From a virus: DNA of 64,000 bases. Shown piece after piece: positions 13,421 through 30,674 of this stretch (positions are counted from its first letter, which is position 1; each line of letters opens with the position of its first letter). Below the pieces are notes generated by a model. It had not been told where the DNA came from. It saw only the letters and a program-made list of their open reading frames with translations, and made no database searches. The translations under genes were made by a program, and so were the position numbers. The stretch is taken from positions 1 to 64,000 of IMG/VR virus record IMGVR_UViG_3300032222_000151. One strand, given 5' to 3'.

Positions 13421-14065
13421 ATGTTTACTGATAACCCGAATATAGAGAAAATCCACGAAGGTGTTTACATCTATAGAAACTTTTTAGATAAAAACTTTGT
13501 TGAAAAGATATCTGCAAAGATATTAGAGATAGGTGATGGGGTAGACCTAAAGCATTCTAACAACTGGTATGAGGACAAAGTTTATCAGATGGAAGAAATG
13601 GCAGAATCTTATAAAAAAGCATCTGAACTTCTACTTCCAGAATTGTATATAGTTCCATCTATTATGATACTTATAACAAAACCTGGCGATGAGATGTTTG
13701 TGCATACGGATAGTCCAGAAGAGGATCAGCATGTTGATAGCCCTGATCCATTTGAAACATGTCACATAGTTGACTATGGAATAGTCATATACTATGGTGA
13801 TTGGACTGGCGGAGATGTATTTTATCCAGACCTTGGAATATCCGTATCTCCAAGGCCAGGAGATCTATTAATTCATAAATCACGCAATCCGTATAGTCAT
13901 GGCGTTAGAAAGATAGAGTCTGGAGTTCGTGGGGCACAATCTCTTTTTGCAGTCACAGCAGAAAAAAACCCAGGAACATTTGTTGTTTATGGGTCTAAAG
14001 AGTTTAAGGATATAGAGGAGAGCAATACCCCTCTAGCATGGACAGATGCATTAATAAAAAGATAG
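13421..14065 (+). CDS. Fe(II)/2-oxoglutarate oxygenase, P4H-like (214 aa)
   Basis: The iron ligands H95-T-D97 and H150 and the 2-oxoglutarate-binding R160 can all be placed, with GGDVFYP between them, as in prolyl-4-hydroxylase-type oxygenases. It is one of eight such genes here and most like the one at 16612 (shared AEKNPGTF near the C-terminus versus TEKNPGTF). Substrate unknown. The start lies six bases after TATACT. Confidence 0.88.
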   Translation: MFTDNPNIEKIHEGVYIYRNFLDKNFVEKISAKILEIGDGVDLKHSNNWYEDKVYQMEEMAESYKKASELLLPELYIVPSIMILITKPGDEMFVHTDSPEEDQHVDSPDPFETCHIVDYGIVIYYGDWTGGDVFYPDLGISVSPRPGDLLIHKSRNPYSHGVRKIESGVRGAQSLFAVTAEKNPGTFVVYGSKEFKDIEESNTPLAWTDALIKR

Positions 14066-14108
14066 TTTAGTTGAGTGCACAAAGATGGCAAGAAAGTATG
14101 GGTAAAAG

Positions 14109-14318
14109 ATGATAACAAAACATCAAAAGACTAATATAGTTCCACTTAGAATTATTGGTAACATCTGTGGAGGCTTTGCTGGGAATCATTTATTTAAGGC
14201 TATGTGTCTTGATGAAGATGAAGACTATGGTTGGCGCTATAGGTACCACGAAAAAATGTGGGTAGTCTTAAATAAACCTTATACTCTATGGGGCACATAC
14301 TATATTTTTGAAAAGTAG
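14109..14318 (+). CDS. Hypothetical protein (69 aa)
   Basis: Not recognised. Contains NICGGFAGNHLFK (about residues 18-30) and an aromatic C-terminus (WVVLNKPYTLWGTYYIF). No ribosome binding site or -10 box at the right distance is seen, so both the start and the gene itself are less certain. It lies between an oxygenase and tRNA-Glu. Confidence 0.45.
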   Translation: MITKHQKTNIVPLRIIGNICGGFAGNHLFKAMCLDEDEDYGWRYRYHEKMWVVLNKPYTLWGTYYIFEK

Positions 14319-14323
14319 TGCTT

Positions 14324-14395
14324 GGCTCCATCGTCTATCGGTTAGGACAACGCCCTTTCACGGCGTAAAGACGGGTTCGATTCCCGTTGGGGCTA
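14324..14395 (+). tRNA. tRNA-Glu (TTC)
   Basis: Cloverleaf with acceptor GGCTCCA/TGGGGCT (with G-T pairs), anticodon stem ACGCC/GGCGT, loop CTTTCAC giving anticodon TTC, T-arm ACGGG-TTCGATT-CCCGT and discriminator A. No full CCA encoded. Confidence 0.92.
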
Positions 14396-14467
14396 CATTT
14401 TATGGAACAATGCTTGAATCATTGTTTCTTTTGTAGTATAATAGAAGACTAGAGAAAAGGATTTTAA

Positions 14468-14911
14468 ATGAACGTATATGAATATGTTTTTAGAGATAGT
14501 GAAGGAAGAGATATCCTGCTTGAAGAGTTTAAGGATAAAAATATCCTTATTGTAAATACGGCAAGCAACTGTGGTTTTACAAGACAGTATAATGACCTAC
14601 AGAGATTGACATCAAGAGAAGATCTTCAGATCATTGCCTTTCCTTGCAACCAGTTTGGAGAACAAGAGCCTGGGACAGACGAAGAAATAAAAGATTTTTG
14701 TGTATCAAATTATGGAGTTTCTTTTCCAATTGCCTTAAAGGTTGATGTTAATGGAGAAAAAGAACACCCACTTTATAGACACCTAAAAGATTCTTCTAAG
14801 AATGGTCAAGACATAGGTTGGAACTTTGAAAAGTTTTTGATAAAAACTGATGGAACTGTAATAAACTTTTTATCAGATGTTAAGCCAGACGACATACTAA
14901 ACCATATCTAA
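14468..14911 (+). CDS. Glutathione peroxidase family thiol peroxidase (147 aa)
   Basis: NTASNCGFTRQY carries the peroxidatic Cys (about residue 37, Cys instead of selenocysteine), FPCNQFGEQEPG the Gln of the catalytic tetrad, and WNFEKFL the Trp and Asn. Bacterial Cys-type members reduce hydroperoxides, usually with thioredoxin. Length matches the short bacterial members. AAAAGGA precedes the ATG, with TATAAT at about 14436. It belongs with AhpC, AhpD and thioredoxin genes in this genome; rare in phages. Confidence 0.9.
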   Translation: MNVYEYVFRDSEGRDILLEEFKDKNILIVNTASNCGFTRQYNDLQRLTSREDLQIIAFPCNQFGEQEPGTDEEIKDFCVSNYGVSFPIALKVDVNGEKEHPLYRHLKDSSKNGQDIGWNFEKFLIKTDGTVINFLSDVKPDDILNHI

Positions 14912-14918
14912 GGAATAC

Positions 14919-15365
14919 ATGAAGCCTACTGCCTATATTTTTGATGTTGATGGAACGCTTGCAAATGTTGATGAGTTTTTGCATTTTATGCGTGGTGGTA
15001 AAAAAGACTACGACTCTTTTCACAGCGCATCAATTAACGCAAAACCAAACCTAGAAGTTCTTTCCATGCTTGACAATGCTATATTAAAAGGTCATGCAAT
15101 TTTAATAGTAACGTCAAGAAAAGAAAAATGGCGTGGCTTAACATCGATGTGGCTTGCAAAAAATAATGCAAGATCTCATGCTCTTTTTATGAGAGATAAC
15201 GACGACAATCGTCCAGACTATGAAGTAAAAAAAGATATACTAAATAAGATTCAGGATTTCTGGGTTGTTGTTCATGCCGTGGATGACAATCCAAATGTTA
15301 TAAGACTGTGGGAAGAGAACAAGATTCCTACAACAAAAATAGGAACATGGGATGGAGTTAAATAA
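14919..15365 (+). CDS. HAD-family phosphatase, polynucleotide kinase 3'-phosphatase-like (148 aa)
   Basis: Motif I is FDVDGTLANV, motif II IVTSRKEKW and the acidic motif AVDDNPNVI, the set found in HAD phosphatases. The domain resembles the phosphatase half of T4 polynucleotide kinase, which removes 3' phosphates from RNA or DNA ends; no kinase domain is present. AAGGAATAC precedes the ATG. Ends in a TAATG overlap. Confidence 0.8.
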   Translation: MKPTAYIFDVDGTLANVDEFLHFMRGGKKDYDSFHSASINAKPNLEVLSMLDNAILKGHAILIVTSRKEKWRGLTSMWLAKNNARSHALFMRDNDDNRPDYEVKKDILNKIQDFWVVVHAVDDNPNVIRLWEENKIPTTKIGTWDGVK

Positions 15366-15550
15366 TGGGAAAATGTGTATGTAGATTTTCAAGCGATGCT
15401 GGAGGAAACTGTGACGGAACTCATAAAATAGTTAAGGCAGTCAGAGAGCAAATTGCAAAAGAAATTGAGCAGATAGAAATAGAAGAATCTGTAACAAATG
15501 CTTTGGGCATGCAGATGTTGGCTGCTAAGGTAGCAAGGAATCAAAAGTGA
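15365..15550 (+). CDS. CDGSH-like iron-sulfur protein, degenerate spacing (61 aa)
   Basis: Residues 4-20 read CVCRFSSDAGGNCDGTH, close to the CDGSH pattern that binds a 2Fe-2S cluster through three Cys and one His. The spacing between the Ser and the third Cys is one residue longer than usual and the Pro is missing. A helical tail follows. The gene at 17554 has the standard spacing. Probably a redox or metal-binding role. Confidence 0.65.
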   Translation: MGKCVCRFSSDAGGNCDGTHKIVKAVREQIAKEIEQIEIEESVTNALGMQMLAAKVARNQK

Positions 15551-15717
15551 AAAAGGTTAATGACAAGTCTTCTCAAATTAAGGCAAAGAGGGCCAAGAAG
15601 AAAATAAAAAGATCAAAAGAAAAGATCAAACTATCTAAACATCAAAGGCGTGAGAACAGAATAAGAGAAAAGATTCTTTCAGAATTTCTAGGATCAATTG
15701 ATGTCTCACAAAAGTAG
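15547..15717 (+). CDS. Highly basic small protein (56 aa)
   Basis: GTG start overlapping the previous TGA. Nearly a third of residues are Lys or Arg (MKKVNDKSSQIKAKRAKKK...), suggesting nucleic-acid binding. No family recognised. AAGG upstream and the GTGA overlap support translation. Overlaps the next gene by 17 bases. Confidence 0.55.
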   Translation: MKKVNDKSSQIKAKRAKKKIKRSKEKIKLSKHQRRENRIREKILSEFLGSIDVSQK

Positions 15718-16528
15718 GTTGGTCACAAGGCTTAACATTAATGGTTTTACTATTAACCCAATTGCAGATAAAAAATTTCTTTTTAATATAATAAAAGGTC
15801 TTACGGAGTATGACGATAAACATTTTTGCGACTATGGTAAAAATGTAATTCATAAAAACTATCTTGGAAATTCTGTTTTTCTTCCCGAAGTTTCTTTGAT
15901 TAACGAAAACGAAAGAACTGGCTTTGTTGGGTTCTGCAGTCTGACCAATGGCTACCTTGTTATTAGAATATTTACTGACACATATCCTGCAACAATTGAT
16001 TTTGATTTAGTGTTAGACGACAAACTTGAAGATATAGACCTAATAATAGACCACCTTTGTGCACCAGCAATTCCAAACGATGGTCTTGGAATGTTTGACT
16101 ATACCTACTCTATCAAAACAGAAAAAATGATTGATAACTCCTTATTTAAAGAAAATAGAGGTGATTCTTCTTATGACTTAAATGATCAAATAAAGTTTTT
16201 AGACGAAGGGAAAACTGAGTGGGAAGTTGTTCTTAATCAATTAAAAACTATTGAATGTTACTATTGCAAAGACAGCGGAACAAACTGGATTTTTATTGAT
16301 GATAATAGCAATGCTCATTTAGACTTTAAGAGCGTAGTTGTTTGTAAAGCCCATATGGACAGAGGAAGAATAAGGGAGTTATCATCAACTCTTGGAAATG
16401 ACGAAGGTAAAGATTTTTATAAGTCAGAAACAGACATTTCATTTTTGCCAAAACATGTAGTGGATGAAGATGGTAATATTCTGTATACAAAGAATTTTCC
16501 AGTTGAAAGAGAGGTGAAGAATGATTAG
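15701..16528 (+). CDS. Hypothetical protein with C-terminal CxxC domain (275 aa)
   Basis: Not firmly recognised. The first 150 residues, with GYLVIRIFTDTYPATIDFDL, are faintly like an S-adenosylmethionine-decarboxylase-type fold, but the catalytic residues are not evident, so I do not assign that function. A C-terminal part holds CYYCKDSGTNW and later VCKAHMD, a zinc-like domain. Start at ATG 15701; a TTG just before it was rejected. Confidence 0.7.
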   Translation: MSHKSRLVTRLNINGFTINPIADKKFLFNIIKGLTEYDDKHFCDYGKNVIHKNYLGNSVFLPEVSLINENERTGFVGFCSLTNGYLVIRIFTDTYPATIDFDLVLDDKLEDIDLIIDHLCAPAIPNDGLGMFDYTYSIKTEKMIDNSLFKENRGDSSYDLNDQIKFLDEGKTEWEVVLNQLKTIECYYCKDSGTNWIFIDDNSNAHLDFKSVVVCKAHMDRGRIRELSSTLGNDEGKDFYKSETDISFLPKHVVDEDGNILYTKNFPVEREVKND

Positions 16529-16607
16529 TGCATTTTTTTTAATTCCAGCAGTAGTCCTTGGATATGTTGTATGTTACTTTGTTATGACATACAGGGTTGA
16601 TCAGTAA
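16521..16607 (+). CDS. Single-helix membrane peptide (28 aa)
   Basis: MISAFFLIPAVVLGYVVCYF is a complete membrane helix with a short polar tail. GAGAGGTGAAG gives a good ribosome binding site inside the preceding gene. Too short to classify. Confidence 0.45.
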   Translation: MISAFFLIPAVVLGYVVCYFVMTYRVDQ

Positions 16608-16611
16608 TAGT

Positions 16612-17307
16612 TTAGTAAGGATCAACAGCGTCAGGTAAACCTGAAGTCACTGGATCGTTCCATTTTGGAGAACACCAAACTTTAGTTCTGTCTTCTTGTG
16701 TTTTAGTACATGAATAATACTCGTCTGTTTTATAATTTGGAAAAGTTCCTGGATTTTTCTCTGTTTTTAATGCAAAGTTAGAGTATGTATATCTTGTTCC
16801 AGATGTTACAATATTAACCCCATGCTCATAATCTTGCAATGCTCCATGAATAACAAGATCTCCTGGCTCAACTGCTATTTCAATTTCAAGTTTTGGGTAG
16901 TAAACTTCTCCACCAGTATAGTCTCCAAAATATACGCAAACTCCGTAATCAAGTACGCAGCATGTAGACCATGTGTCTGGCAATGTCAGATCATCATGAT
17001 GCCCTTCTCCTGGGCTATCCCAGTGTGGTTGCATACTTCCACCCTCTTTAAAATGTAGGACCTGTAGTTGTGGATGCATTACATGTGTTGGATATAAAAC
17101 ATCAGACAGTTTTTCCCAGATTGTAAACATTTCTGGAACATGGTTAATAATTCCGTGGTCAGCAACATCAAATGGATGAGCAAGAGACTCGTTTGTTTTA
17201 TCTTCAAGTATCTTATTAAACTTTTCAACCTCTTCCTGAGTAAGGAAGTTTGGCACATACCAAAGTTTTTCTGCTAACTGCTGGATTCCTGGGGTTTCGT
17301 TTATCAT
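16612..17307 (-). CDS. Fe(II)/2-oxoglutarate oxygenase, P4H-like (231 aa)
   Basis: Iron ligands H95-W-D97 and H162 and the 2OG-binding R172 are in place, with TGGEVYYP between. Closest in this window to the gene at 13421. Leaderless: TACAAT (17314-17319 on the other strand) is six bases before the ATG. Substrate unknown. Convergent with the membrane peptide gene that ends five bases away. Confidence 0.88.
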   Translation of the reverse strand: MINETPGIQQLAEKLWYVPNFLTQEEVEKFNKILEDKTNESLAHPFDVADHGIINHVPEMFTIWEKLSDVLYPTHVMHPQLQVLHFKEGGSMQPHWDSPGEGHHDDLTLPDTWSTCCVLDYGVCVYFGDYTGGEVYYPKLEIEIAVEPGDLVIHGALQDYEHGVNIVTSGTRYTYSNFALKTEKNPGTFPNYKTDEYYSCTKTQEDRTKVWCSPKWNDPVTSGLPDAVDPY

Positions 17308-17343
17308 ATAGTTATTGTATCATAGATTTACCTATGATATAAT
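17308..17343. promoter_or_regulatory. Divergent promoter pair
   Basis: The - strand -10 box TACAAT (17314-17319) and the + strand TATAAT (17338-17343) point away from each other with exactly 18 bases between. Each lies where the -35 of the other would be. The same 18-base layout is seen at 21268-21297. Confidence 0.6.
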
Positions 17344-17368
17344 TGTTATACGACAGGATTGGGTGAGT

Positions 17369-17557
17369 ATGAGAGAGTCTTATTTCTTTAAAGAATATGA
17401 AAATGACATCATTTTAACAGTAAGAACATTATCACCTGAAAAATGGTTGCTGGTAGATAGAGAAACTGGCCAAGTGTATGTAGGCAATCCTGGAGGGTAC
17501 TGGGACAAGATGGAAAAAAAGACCAAAACCATAGATAAGGATCTAGATCAAAAATGA
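17369..17557 (+). CDS. Hypothetical protein (62 aa)
   Basis: MRESYFFKEYENDIILTVRTL looks like a small beta-rich protein with a charged tail. The start (17369) follows GGATTGGG and a leader of about 19 nt from the -10 box; the longer frame from 17315 lies before the promoter and was rejected. No family recognised. Overlaps the next gene by four bases. Confidence 0.6.
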   Translation: MRESYFFKEYENDIILTVRTLSPEKWLLVDRETGQVYVGNPGGYWDKMEKKTKTIDKDLDQK

Positions 17558-17682
17558 GACAATGCACATGTGGCAGATCTAAAACATACCCTTATTGCGA
17601 CAATACACATAAGATTAAATCAAATAAAGAAACTGATACTAAAAAAACCAAAGACTCTGAAGAAAATACTAATCCTCAATAA
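17554..17682 (+). CDS. CDGSH-type iron-sulfur protein (42 aa)
   Basis: Residues 4-19 read CTCGRSKTYPYCDNTH, an exact fit to the CDGSH spacing C-x-C-x2-S-x3-P-x-C-D-x-T-H, with Asn in place of Gly. The family binds a redox-active 2Fe-2S cluster. The remainder is a charged tail. It overlaps the convergent oxygenase gene by 14 bases. Second CDGSH-like gene in the redox region. Confidence 0.75.
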   Translation: MRQCTCGRSKTYPYCDNTHKIKSNKETDTKKTKDSEENTNPQ

Positions 17683-18244
17683 GGTATTGCTTGTGTTTAC
17701 CAGAAAATTCTGGACTGAGTAGCCCTATGCTTACTGTATACCTTGGATTTCCTTTAAGCATAGTAAGAGAGTGAGGGATTGACGGAGGAAATATAAAAAT
17801 ATCTCCAGCCTCTGGTTTATAGGTTATTCCTAAATCTTTAAACTTTATTTCTGCACCAGAAAAATCATCATTTATGTGCAAGTTTACCATTATATGATTT
17901 TCATCTGGACTATCAGAGTGATATGACATAAAGTTTCCATCTCTTAGTTTAGAAACAACAAAAGCATCTTGTCTGGTAACTATTCCAAAGTTATTATAGT
18001 GCTGCATATACTCTAGGATGCTATCAAAGACTGTACTATAAAACATATTTTTTAGTTTTATAGAACTGTATGTATCTTCTTTTGTAAACACCATAGGGAC
18101 AAACATTGTTAAGTGTGGTCTTGCTATATCTGAAATGTCTTGGAAATGAAATGAGTCTTCATTTACTTTTTCAATTAGATCGATCCATTCTTGTGAATCA
18201 ATCTTAGTTTTAAACTTAACAATTCTATCGCCTAGTATTTCCAT
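17669..18244 (-). CDS. Fe(II)/2-oxoglutarate oxygenase (191 aa)
   Basis: H109-S-D111, H158 and R168 form the iron and 2OG sites; NDDFSGAEIKF stands where the others have a GG-FYP strand. The IPHSLTML segment around the distal His is typical of the double-stranded beta helix. TATACT lies seven bases before the ATG. Substrate unknown. Confidence 0.87.
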   Translation of the reverse strand: MEILGDRIVKFKTKIDSQEWIDLIEKVNEDSFHFQDISDIARPHLTMFVPMVFTKEDTYSSIKLKNMFYSTVFDSILEYMQHYNNFGIVTRQDAFVVSKLRDGNFMSYHSDSPDENHIMVNLHINDDFSGAEIKFKDLGITYKPEAGDIFIFPPSIPHSLTMLKGNPRYTVSIGLLSPEFSGKHKQYLIED

Positions 18245-18246
18245 AT

Positions 18247-18275
18247 TTGACAGTATATCACATAACCTGTATACT
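18247..18275 (+). promoter_or_regulatory. Promoter of tRNA cluster
   Basis: TTGACA (18247-18252), 17 bp, TATACT (18270-18275). The predicted start is 1-2 bases before tRNA-Met. It overlaps the divergent -10 box of the oxygenase gene (18252-18257). Confidence 0.75.
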
Positions 18276-18283
18276 TATAATAT

Positions 18284-18358
18284 GCACCAGTAGCCAAGTT
18301 GGTTAAGGCACCGAACTCATAATTCGGCTATTCGTAGGTTCAAGTCCTACCTGGTGTA
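18284..18358 (+). tRNA. tRNA with CAT anticodon (Met, or Ile2)
   Basis: Acceptor GCACCAG/CTGGTGT, anticodon stem CCGAA/TTCGG with loop CTCATAA, T-arm TAGG-TTCAAGT-CCTA. The CAT anticodon could be elongator Met, initiator Met or lysidine-modified Ile. The loop does not separate elongator Met from Ile2. Confidence 0.88.
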
Positions 18359-18362
18359 CTAC

Positions 18363-18436
18363 ACATCTGTAACTCAGTTGGTTAGAGTACCCGCCTTATA
18401 TGCGGAGAGCCGAAGGTTCAAGTCCTTCCAGATGTA
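18363..18436 (+). tRNA. tRNA-Ile (TAT)
   Basis: Acceptor ACATCTG/CAGATGT, D-stem ACTC/GAGT, anticodon loop CTTATAT (anticodon TAT, reads AUA), T-arm GAAGG-TTCAAGT-CCTTC. The first anticodon-stem pair is a C-A mismatch. Four bases after the preceding tRNA. Confidence 0.86.
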
Positions 18437-18454
18437 CGATATAATTAAATATAT

Positions 18455-18527
18455 TGGTGTGTAACTCAGATGGTAGAGTGCCGAACTGTTAATTCGGATG
18501 TCGCAGGATCGATACCTGCCACACCAG
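18455..18527 (+). tRNA. tRNA-Asn (GTT)
   Basis: Acceptor TGGTGTG/CACACCA, anticodon stem CCGAA/TTCGG with loop CTGTTAA (GTT), T-arm GCAGG-ATCGATA-CCTGC, discriminator G. Third of a run of three. Confidence 0.9.
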
Positions 18528-18541
18528 CAAGGGGAAATCCC

Positions 18542-18583
18542 TAGGGTAAGATAAGAAAGTTGGTGCAAATCCAACCTACCCTA
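18542..18583 (+). ncRNA. tRNA-like minihelix (acceptor stem plus T-arm only)
   Basis: A perfect 7-bp stem TAGGGTA/TACCCTA encloses a 10-nt linker and a 5-bp stem GTTGG/CCAAC with the 7-nt loop TGCAAAT, close to a T-loop. D-arm and anticodon arm are absent. It follows tRNA-Asn by 14 nt and ends 18 nt before the ahpC start. It could be a decayed tRNA, a processing element or an ahpC leader structure. Confidence 0.45.
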
Positions 18584-18601
18584 CTAACAGAAAGAAGAAA
18601 A

Positions 18602-19138
18602 ATGAAAACAGTTGGAGATAAATTAGGTAATTTTGCTGTTACTGGAGTAAAACCAGGAGCACTAACCTATGAAGATAGTTCTTTTGAAGTATTAAATCAA
18701 GACTCTTTCCCTGGAAAGTGGAAGATTATTGCTTTTTATCCTAAAGACTTTACGTTTGTATGCCCAACAGAAATTGTTGCATATGATGCTTTAGTTAATG
18801 ATTTTAATGATCGTGATGCAGTTTTAATGGTAGGATCAGTTGACAATGAATTCTGTAAAATTGCATGGCGTAATGCTCATGAAGACCTTAAGAAGACTAA
18901 CTCATGGTCATTTGCGGATACAGCCCATCAATTGGCTGGAGACCTTGGTGTTCACCATTCATCTGGAGTAACTTATCGTGCTACATTTATTGTTGATCCT
19001 GACAATATTATTCAGCATGTGACGGTTAATAATCTTGATGTAGGTCGTAATGCAAATGAAGCACTTAGAGTTCTTGATGCCCTGCAAACTGGAGAACTTT
19101 GTGCATGTAACAGACCTTTGGGCGGAGAAACACTTTAA
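18602..19138 (+). CDS. ahpC: Peroxiredoxin AhpC (178 aa)
   Basis: DFTFVCPTEIVAYDAL holds the peroxidatic Cys (about residue 45) with its Thr, and GELCACNRPLG near the C-terminus the resolving Cys pair (CAC), as in actinobacterial AhpC. It reduces peroxides and peroxynitrite. The next gene is AhpD, its known reductant partner in mycobacteria. The start ATG 18602 gives MKTVGDKLG; a longer TTG frame runs into the minihelix and was rejected. Co-transcription with the tRNAs is likely. Confidence 0.93.
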   Translation: MKTVGDKLGNFAVTGVKPGALTYEDSSFEVLNQDSFPGKWKIIAFYPKDFTFVCPTEIVAYDALVNDFNDRDAVLMVGSVDNEFCKIAWRNAHEDLKKTNSWSFADTAHQLAGDLGVHHSSGVTYRATFIVDPDNIIQHVTVNNLDVGRNANEALRVLDALQTGELCACNRPLGGETL

Positions 19139-19650
19139 TGTCATGGGTCGAACAATTAAAAGAAAGTCTTCCTGATTATGCTAAAGATATTAAACTAAAT
19201 CTTGATGCAGTAATCAATAGATCTACCGTTGATTCTGAGCATGCTACATATTTGGCAATTGCAGCAGCATTTGCAACTGGCAATGGCAAACTTCTTGCAT
19301 TCATTACTGCAAATGCAACAGATGAAGTTGAAAAGAACGCAGCACTAACTGCTGGTGCAATTATGGCACAAAACAATGTATGGTATCCATATCTTGAAAT
19401 GGCTGATGATCAAAATTTAAAAGGATTGCCAGCCCAATTAAGAATGAATGCTATAGCAACTCATGGTGGAACAACAAAGGCAAAGTTTGAAGCATACTCT
19501 CTTGCTTCGTCTATTGTTGGTAAGTGTCACTTTTGTGTTAAAGCACACTACGAAACATTGAAAGAAGAAGGCTATACAGTTGAACAGTTGCGTGATATCG
19601 GAAGAATTGCAGCAACAATCAATGCACTGGCAAAGATCCTTTCAGCATGA
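19138..19650 (+). CDS. ahpD: Alkylhydroperoxidase AhpD (170 aa)
   Basis: The catalytic GKCHFCVKAHYETL (CxxC plus His, about residues 126-139) and the N-terminal LKESLPDYAKDIKLNL match AhpD. In mycobacteria AhpD recycles AhpC with reducing power from a lipoylated protein. It begins in a TAATG overlap with ahpC, a tight two-gene unit. The pair was probably taken from an actinobacterial host. Confidence 0.93.
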   Translation: MSWVEQLKESLPDYAKDIKLNLDAVINRSTVDSEHATYLAIAAAFATGNGKLLAFITANATDEVEKNAALTAGAIMAQNNVWYPYLEMADDQNLKGLPAQLRMNAIATHGGTTKAKFEAYSLASSIVGKCHFCVKAHYETLKEEGYTVEQLRDIGRIAATINALAKILSA

Positions 19651-19687
19651 CCAACAGTCCTGGGTACGACCTAAAACTACCCAATAT

Positions 19688-19760
19688 ACCTCTGTAGTTC
19701 AGTGGACAGAACGTTGGACTTCTAAGCCAAGCGTCGCAGGTTCGATTCCTGCCAGGGGTA
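19688..19760 (+). tRNA. tRNA-Arg (TCT)
   Basis: Acceptor ACCTCTG/CAGGGGT, anticodon loop CTTCTAA (TCT), T-arm GCAGG-TTCGATT-CCTGC, discriminator A. The anticodon stem TTGGA/GCCAA has one A-G mismatch next to the loop. Reads AGA, a codon favoured by AT-rich phages. Confidence 0.88.
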
Positions 19761-19802
19761 CTTCTAGGTGGTATAATATATATGAGTGTTCGAGAGGAAA
19801 TT

Positions 19803-22995: not shown

Positions 22996-23052
22996 ATTAT
23001 TCCCCTTTCAAGCGAATAAGTTAATTTACCCCCCATTTGGGCAGGTATAAAT

Positions 23053-23094: not shown

Positions 23095-23106
23095 CTAATC
23101 TAGTTA

Positions 23107-23376: not shown

Positions 23377-23386
23377 TTTATTCCTC

Positions 23387-23940: not shown

Positions 23941-24176
23941 AGTTCTTTGCCTCCTTCTCTTACCAATAATACAATTGCACCATTATCCTCTAATGCTTTC
24001 TTGACACGAATCATATATTCTATTGCTTGTCTTTTAAGTTCTACTGTTTCTAACGACATAAAGTCTTTTTCTTTTGCTTTTACTGTTATAAAATGTTCAT
24101 TGTCTATGATCTGTAAAGAAAAATTCTTAGGACATTCAAGAGATCTAAAGGCTCTTTTCATTGAATCTGTATACAT
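23937..24176 (-). CDS. Hypothetical protein (79 aa)
   Basis: Not recognised. A small alpha/beta protein (SLQIIDNEHFITVKA, then a helix and VIVLLVREG-like final strand). GGAG precedes the start by four bases. Sits directly after the WhiB-like gene. Confidence 0.6.
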   Translation of the reverse strand: MYTDSMKRAFRSLECPKNFSLQIIDNEHFITVKAKEKDFMSLETVELKRQAIEYMIRVKKALEDNGAIVLLVREGGKEL

Positions 24177-24177
24177 A

Positions 24178-24459
24178 TTACTCCATTGTTAATGATTGCC
24201 ATGTCATTCCCCAGTCATCCTTACTCTTGTGGCTTGAAAACTCTTTAGATATTTCTCCATTTTCTAAGTATACTCCGCCCCAAACTCCCCACTCTTTTCC
24301 TGATATGCCAACAGAAAAACAGTCTTTTCTAACTGAGCATCCAGAACAAAGTGCATCTATTGCTGGCCTGAGAAGTTCATCTTCTTCGTACTTGTCAAAG
24401 AATAAGTTTGTGTCATAGTCTAAGCAGACTGCATCGTCTTTCCATTTATGCTTATTCAC
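24178..24459 (-). CDS. WhiB-like iron-sulfur transcription factor (93 aa)
   Basis: Four Cys in the WhiB pattern are visible: one in AVCLDYD and three in LCSGCSVRKDCF (C-x2-C-x5-C), followed by the turn EWGVWGGVYL. The family binds a 4Fe-4S cluster and works with the primary sigma factor; it is confined to Actinobacteria and their phages. Phage WhiB proteins can alter host gene expression. The usual basic C-terminus is weak here. Confidence 0.92.
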   Translation of the reverse strand: MNKHKWKDDAVCLDYDTNLFFDKYEEDELLRPAIDALCSGCSVRKDCFSVGISGKEWGVWGGVYLENGEISKEFSSHKSKDDWGMTWQSLTME

Positions 24460-24672
24460 TTAGATCACATACTTATCTGGAATTTCCCATCCTTGACTAG
24501 AAGGAATAAACTCTTTCTTCATCTGCCACTTATTATTTTTATAAACTCCAAACTTAGAGTAGTAGGCTTTCTCTGATGGAAAAGTCTCAACTACAGTCCA
24601 TCCATTCCAGGATAGTTGTCTATGGTTCTTTACTATAGATTCCATAGTCTCTAAAGAATTAACTATTTTCAT
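24460..24672 (-). CDS. Hypothetical protein (70 aa)
   Basis: Not recognised. MKIVNSLETMESIVKNHRQL leads into a Trp/Lys-rich beta region (NGWTVVETF...FGVYKNNKWQMK). ATG 24672 follows CGGAAC. An alternative GTG at 24702 stands six bases after TATATC and would be leaderless, adding ten residues; I cannot decide with certainty. Confidence 0.6.
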   Translation of the reverse strand: MKIVNSLETMESIVKNHRQLSWNGWTVVETFPSEKAYYSKFGVYKNNKWQMKKEFIPSSQGWEIPDKYVI

Positions 24673-24722
24673 TATGTTCCGTTCTGTTTGTGTGCTTTGC
24701 ACAGTTTAGATATACATAAAAA

Positions 24723-25073
24723 TTAAAATGTATATACGTTTGTATTTATATTATTTAGTTTTGATGAGTGAACAACCTTTGATACTGGCTCTTTTGGGTT
24801 AGACAAAAACGCCAAATGATCTAGTTCTGCAACATTTTCTTCTAGCCACTGAGGAGTAACCTTAAATAGTTTTATAGATTTTCCTCTTGACTTCATTCCT
24901 CTTTCAGAAAGATTAGAAAATTCCATTGCCATCATATTAATATTGTTTGGCCCAGCAGAGTATATCAAAAACTCTTTATCGTCTTCTCTTAACTCAGAAA
25001 GGGCAACAGCCATTGATCTAAGGAATATGTTGTAGTTATCAAAACCACTAGTTCCCTGAACCCCTACTATCAT
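24723..25073 (-). CDS. SLOG/DUF2493-like Rossmann protein (116 aa)
   Basis: VGVQGTSGFDNYNIFLRSM, FLIYSAGPNNINMMA and EFSNLSERGMKSRG resemble small phage and actinobacterial proteins with a nucleotide-binding Rossmann-like fold of the YspA/SLOG type. The exact ligand is unknown. Call based on pattern memory; moderate confidence. Confidence 0.65.
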   Translation of the reverse strand: MIVGVQGTSGFDNYNIFLRSMAVALSELREDDKEFLIYSAGPNNINMMAMEFSNLSERGMKSRGKSIKLFKVTPQWLEENVAELDHLAFLSNPKEPVSKVVHSSKLNNINTNVYTF

Positions 25074-25461
25074 CGTTAATCCCTTCTCGTAGTTTATCCA
25101 TTATAAAAAGCATCTTATCTAATTGTACCCTATCCATGTGTATGGTGTCAACTTGCTCTGCAGAGTCTTTATCAATAATTTCATTAACAATTGGTGCCCT
25201 GTAAAAGATATTATCCTTAATCCAGTATGCCTGGCTATCAAAAATGATAACCTTTATGTTGGTTTTATCATAATGCACCTTAGACTGAGTTCTTGTATTT
25301 AATTTTCTTGAGTTTTTCTTCCTCGTGCTATACCTATATTGCAGCATAGACTGGCTGATGATTTGAGTTGGCTCATTACTTTTTTTATTTATTCTTAAGT
25401 AAATAATTAAAAGGACAAAGAGGGATGCTGTTGCAGTTGCTGCACCGTAAACACTATTCAT
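25048..25461 (-). CDS. Single-pass membrane protein (137 aa)
   Basis: An N-terminal helix (about residues 5-24) followed by a basic segment rich in Arg/Lys and Ser, then an alpha/beta region with IIFDSQAYWIKDNIFYRAP. Not recognised. GGTGGGGGTGCAG lies before the ATG, and TACAAT about 25 bases upstream. Overlaps the next gene by 26 bases. Confidence 0.6.
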   Translation of the reverse strand: MNSVYGAATATASLFVLLIIYLRINKKSNEPTQIISQSMLQYRYSTRKKNSRKLNTRTQSKVHYDKTNIKVIIFDSQAYWIKDNIFYRAPIVNEIIDKDSAEQVDTIHMDRVQLDKMLFIMDKLREGINDDSRGSGN

Positions 25462-25485
25462 TCTGCACCCCCACCCATAATTGTA

Positions 25486-25815
25486 TCACTTTTTACCAGA
25501 TAAAACTCTGACAATCTCTTCCATAATTACTCTTTCGTCTTTCTCTAAACCTTTTATTTCTTTAGCATCAAAAGATTTTGGCCCTAACTTAACCATTGGA
25601 TCGGCATCTGTCACATCCATGTCTATAAACCCCTTTTCCCATAACTTTAAAGTTGTAGATGAAAAATAGTTTTGTATCTCAGTGCTTAGTTTTGGATCAA
25701 TATCTTTTAATGAATCTGTAGGTCTGTATAGAGCCTCTCCAGTTTCACGATCTACACCAGCAAACTCAAGACCGCCATTTAATATAAGGTTGTCTACTGC
25801 ATCAAATTCATTCAT
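25486..25815 (-). CDS. Conserved phage protein, ETGEALYRPT type (109 aa)
   Basis: MNEFDAVDNLILNGGLEFAG begins a short domain with VDRETGEALYR, shared with the gene at 27912 (MILDGSVEFAAVDIESGDILYR), so the two are paralogs. The rest is helical and acidic. Function unknown. Start in a TAATG overlap; residues upstream of it in the same frame were rejected. Confidence 0.65.
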   Translation of the reverse strand: MNEFDAVDNLILNGGLEFAGVDRETGEALYRPTDSLKDIDPKLSTEIQNYFSSTTLKLWEKGFIDMDVTDADPMVKLGPKSFDAKEIKGLEKDERVIMEEIVRVLSGKK

Positions 25816-26018
25816 TACTTTCTGCCCCACTGAATATTGTTCCAGCCTCGCTCATGTGCATAGTAGATAAATACTTTAACTACCGTTTCCCAAAATGCAA
25901 TTGCACCTGATAAAGTTGCATCTCCTGTCAAGACATAAGCAACAACAAATGACGACAATGTACCCCATATGCGATAACTCAGTGCCTTAACAAACGACCT
26001 AGCCTTTGTTACTGTCAT
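25815..26018 (-). CDS. DUF2061 membrane protein, copy 1 (67 aa)
   Basis: KALSYRIWGTLSSFVVAYVL, TGDATLSGAIAF and YYAHERGWNNIQWG match DUF2061 (PF09834): two membrane helices ending in a HERxWN-W motif. No biochemical role is established. Adjacent to copy 2; two more copies lie at 30674 and 30874. Confidence 0.88.
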   Translation of the reverse strand: MTVTKARSFVKALSYRIWGTLSSFVVAYVLTGDATLSGAIAFWETVVKVFIYYAHERGWNNIQWGRK

Positions 26019-26218
26019 TCTTTACCCCAGGAGACAGAATTCCAAACTCTTTCATGGTAGTAATAAGCAACAAAGTTAACACCATTAGTTATAACTGTTG
26101 CAAGCGTTGCCATGTTAATATCTTTACTTAGTGCGTACAATGTTATGAACGTTGTCAACAAAGCAACAACTCTCCATGTCAAAGACTTGACAAGAGATCT
26201 ACTTTTCTTTACGCTCAT
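26015..26218 (-). CDS. DUF2061 membrane protein, copy 2 (67 aa)
   Basis: KSLTWRVVALLTTFITLYAL and YYYHERVWNSVSWG show the same two-helix DUF2061 design. Start MSVKKSRS behind GGAGATAAAG. Ends in a four-base overlap with copy 1. Confidence 0.88.
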   Translation of the reverse strand: MSVKKSRSLVKSLTWRVVALLTTFITLYALSKDINMATLATVITNGVNFVAYYYHERVWNSVSWGKE

Positions 26219-26327
26219 CTTTATCTCCAAACATTAGTCGCTCTTCTGCTTCGTTCATTAGGCGACCAGACTCTTCTAAGTAATTAAATACCCATTTGCT
26301 TGCGTTTTTCAGTAGCCGAAATAGCAT
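26199..26327 (-). CDS. Small amphipathic helical protein (42 aa)
   Basis: MLFRLLKNASKWVFNYLEES is followed by a charged helix ending GDKDERKEK. It overlaps the kinase gene by 44 bases and the DUF2061 gene by 20, and fills the only gap in this packed stretch. No clear ribosome binding site, so confidence is limited. The amphipathic N-terminus may sit on the membrane. Confidence 0.45.
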   Translation of the reverse strand: MLFRLLKNASKWVFNYLEESGRLMNEAEERLMFGDKDERKEK

Positions 26328-27045
26328 GAATGTCTGCCCCCAAGTCTACTTGCTCAATCTTGTATCCAACATCACGACCATAAACAATGTTAGTAATGTT
26401 AGGAAGTCTAAGTACTAATGCACCATCCATGAAGTCATCCTTGGCGATATAACCTTTTACCTGATCAAAAGTAAGTGGGTCCTTCTCGCTTGTATTATAG
26501 GTATTACGGACTCCAAGTAGGACTTGCTCTGTTCTCTTCCCCGCTTCTTTATACAGAGCGTGGTGGCCTTCATGCCAGGGCTGGTACCTACCTAGCATAA
26601 GAGTTGTAGGTGCAGACCAATCATGAAGACTAAACTTATCAATGATGTGAGATGCCTTTGCTTCTGCATCTAAGTTATGACTAATAAATGATACATCTGC
26701 ATTATCTGGTCGTTCAAACATCTTGTTTGTATCTTCAAATCTACCCTCAGCAATTGTATCCATAAATACCAATATGTCTGGCTTGCCAAATGCTGCACGA
26801 GTAATATCTGTTGGACATACAAAGTCAACAATTACTGGAGCAACACCCTGCTTAGAAATAAGTCTTGCCATCTCTCCCATGCGTCGTGCTTGCTCAATTC
26901 TATCTTCAGGTGTAAACCCCAAGTCTGAATTCACTGTTGCACGAACTTCGTCAGCGTTTAGATGAATAGCATTAATACGTTCTTTTAGAGCCTTTGCTAA
27001 CTCTGTTTTTCCTGATCCTGGAAGACCAATAATTTGAATAATCAT
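26284..27045 (-). CDS. APS-kinase-like / nucleotidyltransferase fusion (253 aa)
   Basis: The N-terminal domain has a Walker A loop GLPGSGKTELA and the APS-kinase signature HLNADEVRATVNSDLGF...RIEQARRMGEMA. The C-terminal domain begins MLGRYQPWHEGHHALY, the HxGH motif of cytidylyl/NMN adenylyltransferases. Such fusions are known but their substrates are not settled; it could act in PAPS, NAD or sugar-nucleotide metabolism. The start is ATG 27045; the long upstream frame overlaps the next gene and was rejected. Confidence 0.8.
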   Translation of the reverse strand: MIIQIIGLPGSGKTELAKALKERINAIHLNADEVRATVNSDLGFTPEDRIEQARRMGEMARLISKQGVAPVIVDFVCPTDITRAAFGKPDILVFMDTIAEGRFEDTNKMFERPDNADVSFISHNLDAEAKASHIIDKFSLHDWSAPTTLMLGRYQPWHEGHHALYKEAGKRTEQVLLGVRNTYNTSEKDPLTFDQVKGYIAKDDFMDGALVLRLPNITNIVYGRDVGYKIEQVDLGADIHAISATEKRKQMGI

Positions 27046-27260
27046 ACTTCTTCTCTTCTCCAATGTATAAATGATTTTATATAAACTGCTGCATATGCAA
27101 TTGCTGAAAATATAAAACCGTACTGATCTGTAATAATAGCATACGCTATCCACAAGCATTCATTAACACACAAAACAAGCCATCCCCATATAGTCTTACG
27201 ACCAACGAAGTATATGCCTGCAACTCCTATTACTGCTAAAACCCATGACCACATAAGCAT
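27042..27260 (-). CDS. Small membrane protein, PnuC-like segment (72 aa)
   Basis: Three hydrophobic stretches (WSWVLAVIGVAGIYFVG, TIWGWLVLCVNECLWIAYA, FIFSAIAYAAVYI) give a small three-helix protein that resembles part of a PnuC-type nicotinamide riboside transporter. It overlaps the kinase/nucleotidyltransferase gene by four bases, so the two are expressed together. Start ATG 27260 is 2 bases after the predicted transcription start; ATG 27254 is an alternative. Confidence 0.7.
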   Translation of the reverse strand: MLMWSWVLAVIGVAGIYFVGRKTIWGWLVLCVNECLWIAYAIITDQYGFIFSAIAYAAVYIKSFIHWRREEV

Positions 27261-27295
27261 TCCTAACTATTATATATATAAGTATACCAGGAACA

Positions 27296-27919
27296 CTACT
27301 GGTTTGCAACTAGGTTTTGATAATGAACTCTATTTTCCCAAAATCCTGGAGTCATATATTTTTCTCCACTAAGTACTGGCATGGACTCATGAAAGTATGG
27401 TGATCTTGATGGGAACACTGCAATACTTCCTGCAGAAGGCTTGATCTTAATATTCTGATTCTGAAAGTTTAATTCTCCGCCAGTATAGTCATCATTTAAA
27501 TACAGAACAACAGATATTGTTTTACCCTTGTCATCATCGTGGCAGTCAACATGAGGGCCCATCATGCTTCCAACAAAGTATTTACTTATTGACATTGGGC
27601 ATAGCATTCCAATATCAAGACCTGGGTGCATAGACTCATAGTCTTTTGATACAGAGTAGATTGCATTATAAAGAACTTTATATACCTTTTCAGACTCAAC
27701 GTCAATGCTGTTAGTAAGATCAAACAGTTCTTCCCTGATCATCTTTTGTTTACCAAAGGCATAATCTGACTGATAGGCAGTCCAGTCTGCCCACTTAGAC
27801 AGACCACTTTTTTCTGTTAAATGCTCATCAAGATCTTCTATTTTTTTAATTAAAGATTTTGTGTCTTCTATTACATTTTCATAATAGTAAATGTTTTCTT
27901 CAAGTATGTTTCTATTCAT
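27296..27919 (-). CDS. Fe(II)/2-oxoglutarate oxygenase with P4H-type Lys (207 aa)
   Basis: H123-V-D125 and H177 are the iron ligands; at the 2OG-binding position, ten residues after the distal His, it has K187 instead of Arg, as in true prolyl 4-hydroxylases. NDDYTGGELNF precedes the distal His. Start MNRNILEEN behind GAGGATAAG. Substrate unknown. Confidence 0.87.
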   Translation of the reverse strand: MNRNILEENIYYYENVIEDTKSLIKKIEDLDEHLTEKSGLSKWADWTAYQSDYAFGKQKMIREELFDLTNSIDVESEKVYKVLYNAIYSVSKDYESMHPGLDIGMLCPMSISKYFVGSMMGPHVDCHDDDKGKTISVVLYLNDDYTGGELNFQNQNIKIKPSAGSIAVFPSRSPYFHESMPVLSGEKYMTPGFWENRVHYQNLVANQ

Positions 27920-28103
27920 TCTTATCCTCGGATTCAGTAATCTTATTTCCAAAAAATTCTTTTAGTTGATCATAAAAAAAATAATCTTCTTTGCTGGTTT
28001 CTGTATTTTCAGAAAGCCTATAAAGAATATCTCCAGACTCAATGTCAACTGCTGCAAACTCAACAGAGCCGTCAAGTATCATGTCTGGTATATCTTTATT
28101 CAT
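27912..28103 (-). CDS. Small protein, paralog of the 25486 gene (63 aa)
   Basis: MNKDIPDMILDGSVEFAAVD followed by ESGDILYR aligns with the start of the gene at 25486; the helical C-terminus is shorter. Function unknown. Overlaps the thioredoxin gene by 8 and the oxygenase gene by 8 bases. Confidence 0.6.
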   Translation of the reverse strand: MNKDIPDMILDGSVEFAAVDIESGDILYRLSENTETSKEDYFFYDQLKEFFGNKITESEDKNE

Positions 28104-28344
28104 GAATAAACCTGTAAAGTTGATCTCTTGTTTGTGCGCCAATAATTCTTTTTATTTCTTTGTTTTCTGAAAGCAAAACAAAAGTTGGAACGCTTTGTAT
28201 TGAAAAACTTTTTGCAAGTTCTATTTCTGAATCAGAGTCTATGATCTGTATTGATTCACCTTCTGATATCAATTCTTCAACTATTGGCCTTACCCTTTTA
28301 CATGGGCCACACCAGTCTGCGGTAAAATAAAGAACATGTTTCAC
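28096..28344 (-). CDS. Thioredoxin-like protein (82 aa)
   Basis: YFTADWCGPCKRVRP has the thioredoxin active site WCGPCK (about residues 11-16), and SIQSVPTFVLL the cis-Pro. It is shorter than typical thioredoxin (about 105 aa), a phage-type mini version. Likely a dithiol reductant; it could serve the peroxidases encoded in this genome. Confidence 0.9.
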   Translation of the reverse strand: MKHVLYFTADWCGPCKRVRPIVEELISEGESIQIIDSDSEIELAKSFSIQSVPTFVLLSENKEIKRIIGAQTRDQLYRFIHE

Positions 28345-28748
28345 TTGCCAGACTTCTTTCTAGCCTTTGCTAGTGCATCAAAGTCCTTTACCTTTGTATC
28401 ACCTAGGTATCCCCAAGCATATCCATCATTGATCATCATATCGTTAAGGGATACTGTGTTGCCATCTACGTATACCCAGCCTAAAATGCGACCATACTTT
28501 TCAGATGAGTCCATCTTCTCAGTCTTAATCACAACAGACTTAGCATCCTTAAGAGACTTCTTTAGATACTCCTTGGCTTCTAGACCTAGAGCCTTTTCAG
28601 CAAGGTCTTTAGTGCGAGACTCAGGGGTATCAATACCAGCCAATCTAACACGAGATGCAAACAGGATATCAAAACCCAAGTCAATAAGAACGTCAATGGT
28701 ATCTCCATCTACAACATTCTCTACTTTTCTTACATAGTATTCATACAT
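28341..28748 (-). CDS. Staphylococcal-nuclease-like thermonuclease (135 aa)
   Basis: VVDGDTIDVLIDLGF, RVRLAGIDTPES, KYGRILGWVYVDG and NDMMINDGYAW are the SNase core, with the catalytic Asp, Arg and Glu region intact. No signal peptide, so it would act inside the cell, perhaps on host DNA or RNA. Overlaps its neighbours by four and eight bases. Confidence 0.9.
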   Translation of the reverse strand: MYEYYVRKVENVVDGDTIDVLIDLGFDILFASRVRLAGIDTPESRTKDLAEKALGLEAKEYLKKSLKDAKSVVIKTEKMDSSEKYGRILGWVYVDGNTVSLNDMMINDGYAWGYLGDTKVKDFDALAKARKKSGK

Positions 28749-29583
28749 TATTTTCTCCTTTTGTTATTTCTTGTATTAGTCCATTAACTAGTATATCATT
28801 TTTTTTACTAAGTTCATGAGGCTGACCCAAAAACTCCCACCTATGAGTATTTATTAGAACATCTGTAATTCCTTCTGACTCTAGTTCTAGTAACTGCTTT
28901 TTAACATCATCTCTAGTACCGACTATGGACATTTCTAAAAATCTTTGCCCCTGCGTTGGTAGAAATTCTACATATTCTTTTACATCTTTTTGTGTTTCTA
29001 GGATAATTGGAGAAACTGAAACCATCCTATTTGTAATTCCTTCAAACCTGACCTTATTATTTCTGTAGTCGTCTATCATTGACAAAGATGTACCACCAAA
29101 CATTTTTGTTGTTTCCAGTGTATACTCAGAGTATCCACTAAAAACCATTTCTGGTCTTTTACTTACAAAATCCATAGAGTTATAATCTTGAATAAACTTT
29201 CGTAAAAATGTTGTTTTTTTTATTATACTATCTAAAGTATCGGTATTGCCATAAACATCCACTTGTGGCTTTTCTTCTGGCCTGTTATGTGAATCTCCAG
29301 CAATCCAGTTAAAAATTAACCTGTTTGGGTCAATCTGATTAAATCCTTCAGTGATCATGGCACAATACTGTGGGCTCATGTGGTATGGACGCAAAGCAAT
29401 CATATACTTTAGTTTGTTTCCTGGTACTAAAGCAGCAGCAGACTTTATTAAATAGTCTGGGCTTTCTGAATGAAAGGTAAGCAGCAAAGATTCATATCCG
29501 ACACCTTCTAAATAATTAGAAATAACTGTTAACTCTGTTGCACTTAGAGGGTGCCCCCTCCACATATGGTGAAACCTTAACAT
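28741..29583 (-). CDS. Luciferase-like (LLM class) flavin monooxygenase (280 aa)
   Basis: LKYMIALRPYHMSPQYCAM and the following RLIFNWIAGDSH match the SsuD/bacterial luciferase-like family, TIM-barrel enzymes that use FMNH2 and oxygen; SFHSESPDY near residue 40 fits its flavin/substrate loop. Relatives desulfonate alkanesulfonates or oxidise other small molecules. No flavin reductase is seen in the window. Very unusual in a phage. Confidence 0.85.
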   Translation of the reverse strand: MLRFHHMWRGHPLSATELTVISNYLEGVGYESLLLTFHSESPDYLIKSAAALVPGNKLKYMIALRPYHMSPQYCAMITEGFNQIDPNRLIFNWIAGDSHNRPEEKPQVDVYGNTDTLDSIIKKTTFLRKFIQDYNSMDFVSKRPEMVFSGYSEYTLETTKMFGGTSLSMIDDYRNNKVRFEGITNRMVSVSPIILETQKDVKEYVEFLPTQGQRFLEMSIVGTRDDVKKQLLELESEGITDVLINTHRWEFLGQPHELSKKNDILVNGLIQEITKGENNV

Positions 29584-29799
29584 TTAAATTAACTTTGATC
29601 GTTCGTCAGTAATAGTTATAGCAAACTTCATCATTTTTTCATATCCTACTACATTTTCCATGATCTTGTTATAGTGATGACCGCAGAACAACAAGTCTCC
29701 GTTTATCCCAGTTACTTGAACTAATGCTTCTGCTGTGCACCTATCACATCTATCCTTTGGTGTAAGAGTCCATTCAATCTTCTCTTCTACTTTAGTCAT
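29584..29799 (-). CDS. DUF7455-like zinc protein (71 aa)
   Basis: TPKDRCDRCTAEALVQV and LLFCGHHYNKI, a CxxC plus CxHH metal site, match a small protein widespread in Actinobacteria (DUF7455). This supports an actinobacterial host. Start uncertain: ATG 29799 lies 9 bases after TATAAT (29809-29814), ATG 29808 directly behind it. Confidence 0.8.
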   Translation of the reverse strand: MTKVEEKIEWTLTPKDRCDRCTAEALVQVTGINGDLLFCGHHYNKIMENVVGYEKMMKFAITITDERSKLI

Positions 29800-29809
29800 T
29801 GTAATCATA

Positions 29810-29995
29810 TTATACCCTTCGATTGTCGGTGGAATAAAATCCAGAGCCATTGAAAACAGCCCCTACATTAGAGTATACACGAGTTAGGTCTGTATTGCAA
29901 GTCTCACATTTATATCCTGGATCTTCTGCAGTTATAGACCTTTGCTTAATAAAATTTTCACTGCACTTAGCGCAGTTGTATTCATATATTGCCAT
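29810..29995 (-). CDS. FmdB-family zinc ribbon protein (61 aa)
   Basis: MAIYEYNCAKCSENF, then YKCETCNTDLTRVYS and FNGSGFYSTD, are the FmdB/CxxC_CxxC_SSSS-type ribbon (PF09723). Putative regulatory or metal-binding protein, common in Actinobacteria and their phages. The upstream frame extension was rejected because the family starts at MAIYEY or similar. Confidence 0.88.
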   Translation of the reverse strand: MAIYEYNCAKCSENFIKQRSITAEDPGYKCETCNTDLTRVYSNVGAVFNGSGFYSTDNRRV

Positions 29996-30102
29996 TACTT
30001 CTTTTTCTTTTCTTTTACAGTCCAGTATGGCAAGTTTAGTTTGTCTCCGCCCCACTCATATCCAAGCAACTTTACTACTGCTTTAATTATTTTGATTCTC
30101 AT
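29995..30102 (-). CDS. Small basic protein (35 aa)
   Basis: MRIKIIKAVVKLLGYEWGGD with a poly-Lys end. Good ribosome binding site GGAGATAA, TAATG overlap with the FmdB-like gene and ATGA-type overlap upstream. Not recognised. Confidence 0.55.
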   Translation of the reverse strand: MRIKIIKAVVKLLGYEWGGDKLNLPYWTVKEKKKK

Positions 30103-30674
30103 TTATCTCTCCTTTCATTTAAAAAGCATATAATGTTTACTCTATTTCCTGAAATAACTTCTTGAACCTCATGCTCAAGATCTTCATTTCCTATAAATGT
30201 CAACATTGTTCCAGGCTCTGGCCTTAAACTAGTTTCTAGTTTTGGAAAGTGAATCAGACCACCTTCGTAAGAGTCTGAAAGATACAGTATTGCAGAGTAG
30301 TCCTGTGAGTAATCTTCTGAATAGTTATCAACATGCAAGGAATTTTTACCACCCTCTGTCATATGACTATAAAAGTATGACCTAAGAACTAGATCTTTTT
30401 TAAAAACAGAAGATACAGTTTTTTCTATATTTGTACATATAGATGTAAAAAGATCTATAGAAATGTTTTCTGAGGTGTCTTCAGTTTTACCTGATATCTT
30501 GTGAAGGCCAGAGGTTTTCCATGCATCTCTCTTTTCATCTCCACCAGGCCCACCAGCAATTCCTGGCTTACCAATATTTTTTAAGTTTTTAGAAAATCCA
30601 TCTATTAGGAATTGACATGTTTCTGGAAAGATAAACTCTTCCAAAATAAATAACTTATTGCCTATGTCTTTCAT
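30099..30674 (-). CDS. Fe(II)/2-oxoglutarate oxygenase, P4H-like (191 aa)
   Basis: H114-V-D116, H168 and R178, with SDSYEGGLIHFP between, define the active site. Gly-rich GKPGIAGGPGGDEK near residue 40 is unlike the other copies. Last of the eight oxygenase genes. Substrate unknown. Confidence 0.88.
   Translation of the reverse strand: MKDIGNKLFILEEFIFPETCQFLIDGFSKNLKNIGKPGIAGGPGGDEKRDAWKTSGLHKISGKTEDTSENISIDLFTSICTNIEKTVSSVFKKDLVLRSYFYSHMTEGGKNSLHVDNYSEDYSQDYSAILYLSDSYEGGLIHFPKLETSLRPEPGTMLTFIGNEDLEHEVQEVISGNRVNIICFLNERRDK

Follow-up and report, generated by a model that had tools for sequence, protein, structure and literature searches.

We describe an array of genes for prolyl 4-hydroxylase-like (P4H-like) Fe(II)/2-oxoglutarate (2OG) oxygenases in the viral record IMGVR_UViG_3300032222_000151 (118,809 bp), of which positions 1 through 64,000 (herein the window) were analyzed first as a stretch of DNA on its own. 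On balance we favor the view that these enzymes modify a repeat protein of the phage itself; the enzyme set appears split between the array and the window. A family profile built from this genome finds 13 P4H-like members in the record, plus a TauD-type enzyme; seven of the P4H-like members lie inside the window and six at 86.8 through 92.7 kb of the record. A sequence-only reading of the window had singled out the oxygenase cluster at 13421 through 30674. That cluster is real but gives only half the picture, as the more informative array lies outside the window. The same reading proposed an important, diversified modification function; virion proteins are the target that we favor, and the DNA-base and wall options are not favored.

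The array follows a gene at 94004 through 94972 of the record (minus strand), which encodes an FN3-domain protein with a C terminus of FFPPFFPPFFPPAFPFFPP repeats, of the (FFPP)n type, and which adjoins an Mtd_N/tail-fiber-like gene at 95004. Downstream of the FN3 gene come a weakly sulfotransferase-like gene, one with no family assignment, and then oxygenases at 92053 (plus strand), 91295, and 90578. These are followed by a DUF6065 gene and a partner from its PHROG family (89135 through 89869 and 89869 through 90633), by oxygenases at 88430, 87589, and 86808, and finally by ribonucleotide reductase (RNR). Relatives of the DUF6065 type turn up in other arrays as well, and GAF-type tails have similar-looking genes next to them. 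A 677-residue open reading frame (ORF) at 84680 was considered as a further oxygenase and rejected, since its sequence reads as RNR and its HxD match arose by chance. A search of cultured phages gave no relative of the FN3 protein at E<1e-5; in IMG/VR such relatives are common.

Loci for comparison were collected through protein relatives of the FN3 protein and through repeat proteins matching the DNA patterns FFPPFFPP, FGFSPFG, and PPYFPPYF. For 95 dereplicated FN3-orthologue loci with at least 4 kb downstream, same-strand P4H-like genes were counted within 8 kb. The 62 loci with diproline tails each have one to eight such genes downstream (333 in total), and 58 of the 62 have at least three. 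The 32 loci with single-proline tails have 38 genes, zero to two each, with three or more only in L160; the L160 tail reads PTELLSVLPTELLSVLP after PPFFPPSFPFFP, a sequence that frameshifting of an FFPP repeat could produce. L130, whose FN3 orthologue (7923 through 8729) ends in a proline-free YNFYNF repeat, has zero downstream oxygenases and no 2OG match anywhere in its 72.9-kb record. At 45 loci with at least 4 kb on either side, 168 oxygenase genes lie downstream versus 6 upstream, and at many diproline loci the first oxygenase begins less than 100 bp from the repeat gene. The orthogroup ranks are fixed: 91295-like genes come first, 90578-like second, and 88430-like third, followed by 87589- and 86808-like and then by 30099- and 27296-like members. 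At single-proline loci the oxygenases come from two other families. The full HxD...H motif with its basic anchor is present in 333 of 371 array-type genes elsewhere. When FFPP proteins were chosen by DNA pattern alone (28 with at least 4 kb downstream), 25 of 28 had a 2OG gene and 23 had at least three. Beside non-FN3 proteins, at least three oxygenases were found nearby in 20 of 37 diproline loci versus 0 of 12 single-proline loci, some of the 37 being FN3 fragments at contig ends.

The strongest independent evidence for the link between repeat and array is a local contrast among three closely related genomes. G000 (this phage), G003, and G006 share RNR at 98% identity, DnaE at ∼98%, and terminase at 92 to 94%; yet between FN3 and RNR, G000 with its FFPP tail has six oxygenases, whereas G003 and G006, with GAF-type tails, have none. 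Some of the single-proline FN3 tail proteins (G003, 95819 through 97372; G006, 102492 through 104270; L136; L165) end in a Hint/autoprocessing-like domain that is seemingly absent from the diproline ones, perhaps an alternative maturation route.

Several points weigh against the proposed link. There is a caveat on INDEPENDENCE: trees of the FN3 domain show just four or five changes of tail type, so the locus counts are not independent, row-level p-values overstate the association, and the Fisher and rank tests are descriptive. Supported independent pairs number only two or three, none in the opposite direction, and a phylogenetically independent significance test is underpowered. Single-proline tails usually still have one or two downstream 2OG genes, of other families, and just 20 of the 37 non-FN3 diproline proteins reach three. 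G003 and G006, which lack a diproline tail, retain another 8 and 5 2OG genes, respectively, and this makes another role likely for part of the window set. We place the repeat protein in the virion by gene position alone and infer its hydroxylation. In the algal virus PBCV-1, an unpublished analysis, as cited in PMC7019647 (ref. 162), found no hydroxyproline in virions. The small number of supported changes on the FN3 tree also leaves some room for shared descent, in which one lineage would carry both diproline tail and array with no functional link. We regard this as very unlikely: tail and array change together within 98%-identical RNR surroundings, the proline-free L130 lies within a diproline clade and lacks 2OG genes, the diproline loci L176 and L182 inside a single-proline clade show the opposite with five 2OG genes each, and arrays also stand beside unrelated diproline-tail proteins, even if some of these are FN3 fragments.

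Structure prediction and profile searches address what the enzymes act on. AlphaFold models were made for 27296 (pLDDT 88.6, pTM 0.85) and 13421 (pLDDT 78.8, pTM 0.80), and both have the double-stranded β-helix fold. In Foldseek searches, both match PDB hydroxylases at E ∼1e-8, mostly prolyl hydroxylases, which are the best or near-best solved matches. The 27296 model finds a Shewanella PKHD-type hydroxylase, the PBCV-1 P4H, human C-P4H-II, and PHD2; the top matches of the 13421 model are the B. anthracis P4H and the PBCV-1 P4H. A profile of the 13 paralogues, searched against the PDB, returns prolyl hydroxylases first (P3H1, Bacillus P4H) and also matches the Chlamydomonas P4H, the PBCV-1 P4H, and PHD2. 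With prolyl hydroxylases as both structural and profile neighbors, peptidyl-proline hydroxylation is the predicted activity of the P4H-like genes. TET/JBP-like modification of phage DNA bases, suggested by weak Tet_JBP Pfam scores and by NgTET1 among the lower-ranking matches, is extremely improbable: prolyl hydroxylases outrank NgTET1 in profile and structure searches alike, and no hypermodification gene set was seen near the array, although no systematic search for one was made. The structural matches also include bacterial P4Hs that modify EF-Tu (5v7y, 4iw3), and the window genes occupy both strands at a site away from the tail region, as might be expected if host proteins such as EF-Tu or ribosomal proteins were hydroxylated for host takeover. 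We consider this quite unlikely, because it explains neither the linkage to diproline-repeat genes nor the 2OG-free interval of the close relatives.

In another reading, the oxygenases modify surface glycans, wall polymers, or lipids, either the host's or the virion's, with other phage enzymes taking part and the repeat protein a mere neighbor; this is unlikely, although the likeliest of the alternatives. The phage encodes a glycosyltransferase (6930), an FkbM-like methyltransferase (5124), a carbamoyltransferase (31732), and an APS kinase (26284), there is a below-cutoff Sulfotransfer_1 match at 93242, and the array itself sits in a region with tail-fiber genes. As far as examined, however, array size follows the diproline content of the adjacent repeat and not those genes, and protein hydroxylases are the best structural relatives. 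The APS kinase-like gene (26284 through 27159) and the weak sulfotransferase-like gene (93242 through 93973 of the record) raise the possibility that the phage may sulfate something; the carbamoyltransferase (31732 through 33165), of NodU/TobZ type, occurs in many of the close relatives examined.

All eight oxygenase ORFs claimed for 13421 through 30674 are present: seven P4H-like 2OG oxygenases and one TauD, on both strands. All seven P4H-like ORFs carry HxD...H and, exactly ten residues past the distal His, the 2OG anchor, which is Arg in six and Lys in 27296, as had been read from the sequence. The first gene (13421 through 14065, plus strand; HTD...H(10)R) is assigned by motif and model, its protein giving no match in a Pfam search, and with its paralogue at 16612 it forms the closest oxygenase pair in the window (39% identity). 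The 16612 gene (through 17307, minus strand) and a divergent P4H-like gene at 17669 through 18244 (minus strand) carry the motif and score below the Pfam cutoff for PF13640 (E 0.004 and 0.007, respectively); the former has homologues of 53 to 54% identity at the end of FFPP-linked arrays in L347 and L350-L352, and the latter an 89% orthologue in L346. The TauD-type assignment of 19803 through 20693 (plus strand) holds, with PF02668 at E 2.7e-20 for the ORF 19782 through 20693 and HVE, an HxE, at the usual HxD position; relatives at 47 to 82% identity occupy the same place in L345, L346, and L359. PF13640 is above its cutoff in the other four. These are 21304 through 21879 (plus strand, ORF 21289; HTD...HGVNEVRGSTR; orthologues at 60 to 94%; dN/dS 0.08 to 0.11), 21882 through 22481 (plus strand, ORF 21864; HFD...HGVRDIYNGTR; a 98% orthologue in L325; dN/dS 0.07), 27296 through 27919 (minus strand, start picked from its orthologues; syntenic orthologues at 49 to 82%), and 30099 through 30674 (minus strand; dN/dS 0.09 to 0.13). 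All four have conserved synteny with relatives and are thus long-standing genes at their present place. The reading of 21304 and 21882 as a tandem duplicate is weaker, the pair being only ∼30% identical and 21289 being 72% identical to another phage's gene. The suggested leaderless promoters gained no support from a simple scan, in which promoter-like matches were near the shuffled expectation (78 versus 66 ± 8).

Decay of the window copies was considered and is rejected where tested. Against relatives, dN/dS is 0.07 to 0.28 in 16612, 21304, 21882, 27296, and 30099, the five P4H-like window genes measured, which indicates purifying selection and no decay in these five. TAA, TAG, and TGA counts in the profile matches reflect matches that overrun ORF ends and are not pseudogene evidence.

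Of the seven P4H-like genes in the window, at least 27296, 30099, and 16612 fall into array families, as their homologues elsewhere are array members. The 27296 family also takes ranks 5 and 6 of diproline-linked arrays; 30099, when grouped at 38% identity or above, joins genes at ranks 5 through 7 of 22 diproline-linked arrays; and in L351 and L352 one array beside an FFPP gene holds homologues of 15698, 27296, and 16612. The oxygenase set of G000 thus appears, from these homologies, to be split between two places. No such array link was found for 13421, 17669, 21304, 21882, or the TauD gene, save that 13421 is the 39% paralogue of 16612. The 15698 gene (through 16528, plus strand) encodes a 276-residue protein with no family assigned (neither Pfam nor PHROG gave a match). 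In L350-L352, a 34% homologue of this protein is found within the FFPP-linked oxygenase array; by eye the sequence of the 15698 product is faintly like S-adenosylmethionine decarboxylase. Genes for glutathione peroxidase, AhpC-type peroxiredoxin, and an AhpD-like protein (14468 through 14911, 18560 through 19138, and 19138 through 19650) are interleaved with the window oxygenases, perhaps a peroxide-defense set suited to oxygenase activity. A possible substrate for the window enzymes is the product of 36840 through 38768 (minus strand), which combines a weak PA14 match, falling slightly short of the Pfam cutoff, with a PTPEPSP-type proline-rich segment and has relatives in the group's other large records. 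Further possible substrates are encoded elsewhere in the record at 104020 through 105597 and 106237 through 106944 (PT/PVAP repeats) and at 106928 through 107656 and 107677 through 108687 (collagen-like Gly-X-Y repeats).

We propose that the core of the system would be the fixed-order array 91295, 90578, 88430, 87589, and 86808 (record coordinates) behind the FN3-(FFPP)n gene, whose product is probably tail-associated. In the infected cell, the enzymes would draw on host 2-oxoglutarate, Fe(II), and O2 and hydroxylate the repeat, which is most likely the substrate, with proline most likely the modified residue and the protein probably part of the virion; this would take place before or during virion assembly. 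Several enzymes could then modify different positions or sequence variants, also in other proline-rich or collagen-like phage proteins. The array most likely, and some window genes probably, would thus act on proline/aromatic repeats of virion proteins. A more specific version, which we put forward tentatively, is a hydroxyproline-rich, extensin-like phage fiber, with five to eight specialized prolyl hydroxylases in fixed order modifying the diproline/aromatic repeat of a tail-associated protein, and with repeat and enzymes exchanged together as one cassette. Aquatic phages widely carry 2OG oxygenases, and the present proposal names a specific candidate substrate: a repeat just a few residues long, encoded beside the enzymes. 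If correct, our explanation would mean post-translational proline hydroxylation of phage structural proteins, a reason for keeping so many paralogues, a compact P4H-like enzyme set for making hydroxylated repeat proteins, and an oxygen requirement for making modified virions.

The framing of these genes as those of a cyanophage is wrong. We reject that origin because of a WhiB-family gene (24178 through 24459, minus strand; PF02467, E 3.8e-10), a marker of an actinobacterial host, together with a terminase ∼55% identical to those of Streptomyces phages of the Stanwilliamsviridae (four tested) and a DnaE-type polymerase resembling that of phage Faust. By these sequence markers the contig is a WhiB-encoding actinophage of lake origin, probably related to the Stanwilliamsviridae. 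Members of that family (Karimac, Faust, Kenrey, Naboo, Coruscant) are of similar genome size, with a terminase at ∼55% identity in the four tested, a DnaE-like polymerase in Faust and Karimac, and WhiB in Karimac. Unlike the present phage, these five soil Streptomyces members have no 2OG gene by profile search and no CCNCCNTWYTTYCCNCC match, that is, no FFPP/YFPP-type DNA match, by pattern search. Environmental relatives usually carry several oxygenases: the larger records whose terminases are close have 4 to 8, and a 113-kb record that encodes a diproline protein has up to 14. Among named bacterial genomes there is one close enzyme match, on a 5.3-kb contig of a Chitinophagaceae metagenome-assembled genome that is possibly a misbinned virus fragment.

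Sets of several 2OG hydroxylases that serve repetitive structural proteins have precedents in the Mimivirus collagen lysyl hydroxylase and the cellular collagen P4H, P3H, and LH sets. The present phage comes nearer to collagen systems in also encoding two collagen-like proteins; it differs in that no glycosyltransferase fusion was seen and in that the array-linked repeat is (FFPP)n, not Gly-X-Y. Cyanophages resemble it in their many divergent PF13640-type genes. As cyanophage S-SCSM1 is reported with 24 2OG-Fe(II) oxygenase genes (PMC9602691), we do not regard oxygenase count alone as new; in S-SCSM1 (L674, 210680 through 219702), groups of four and three 2OG genes lie near annotated tail-fiber and virion-protein genes. 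Unlike this phage, cyanophages have cyanobacterial hosts, genomes mostly 1.5 to 2 times larger, and one to six members by the present family profile, and the three tested gave no FFPP/YFPP-type DNA match. Roles proposed so far for cyanophage 2OG genes are 2OG/nitrogen control or DNA repair (PMC3037559). An effect of this kind on 2-oxoglutarate level, nitrogen signaling, or DNA repair has so little probability here that we give it minimal weight, since the phage is an actinophage and a bulk effect needs no fixed-order paralogues behind one structural-type gene.

Among the open-access papers searched (subscription papers and preprints lay outside the search), we found none that ties phage oxygenase arrays to repeat proteins. 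2OG-rich phages are already known, as are viral P4Hs whose substrates are repeats (PBCV-1); for fixed-order arrays tied to repeat type we found no earlier report. The use that viruses make of prolyl 4-hydroxylase "remains cryptic" according to a 2022 paper (PMC9301287), which cites the PBCV-1 enzyme as active toward proline-rich peptides (Eriksson et al. 1999 J Biol Chem 274:22131). By analogy, the PBCV-1 P4H is the nearest functional precedent for our array. Both models have its structure (5c5t) among their leading Foldseek matches; in both viruses a virus-encoded P4H fold goes with a repetitive proline-rich virus protein as proposed substrate, and proline-rich repeat proteins ((FFPP)n, PT/PVAP, Gly-X-Y) are encoded in the same record here. 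PBCV-1 is a eukaryotic algal virus with a single enzyme, whereas the present virus infects bacteria and has 13 paralogues, diproline/aromatic repeats, and an array in fixed order that reaches eight genes in relatives.

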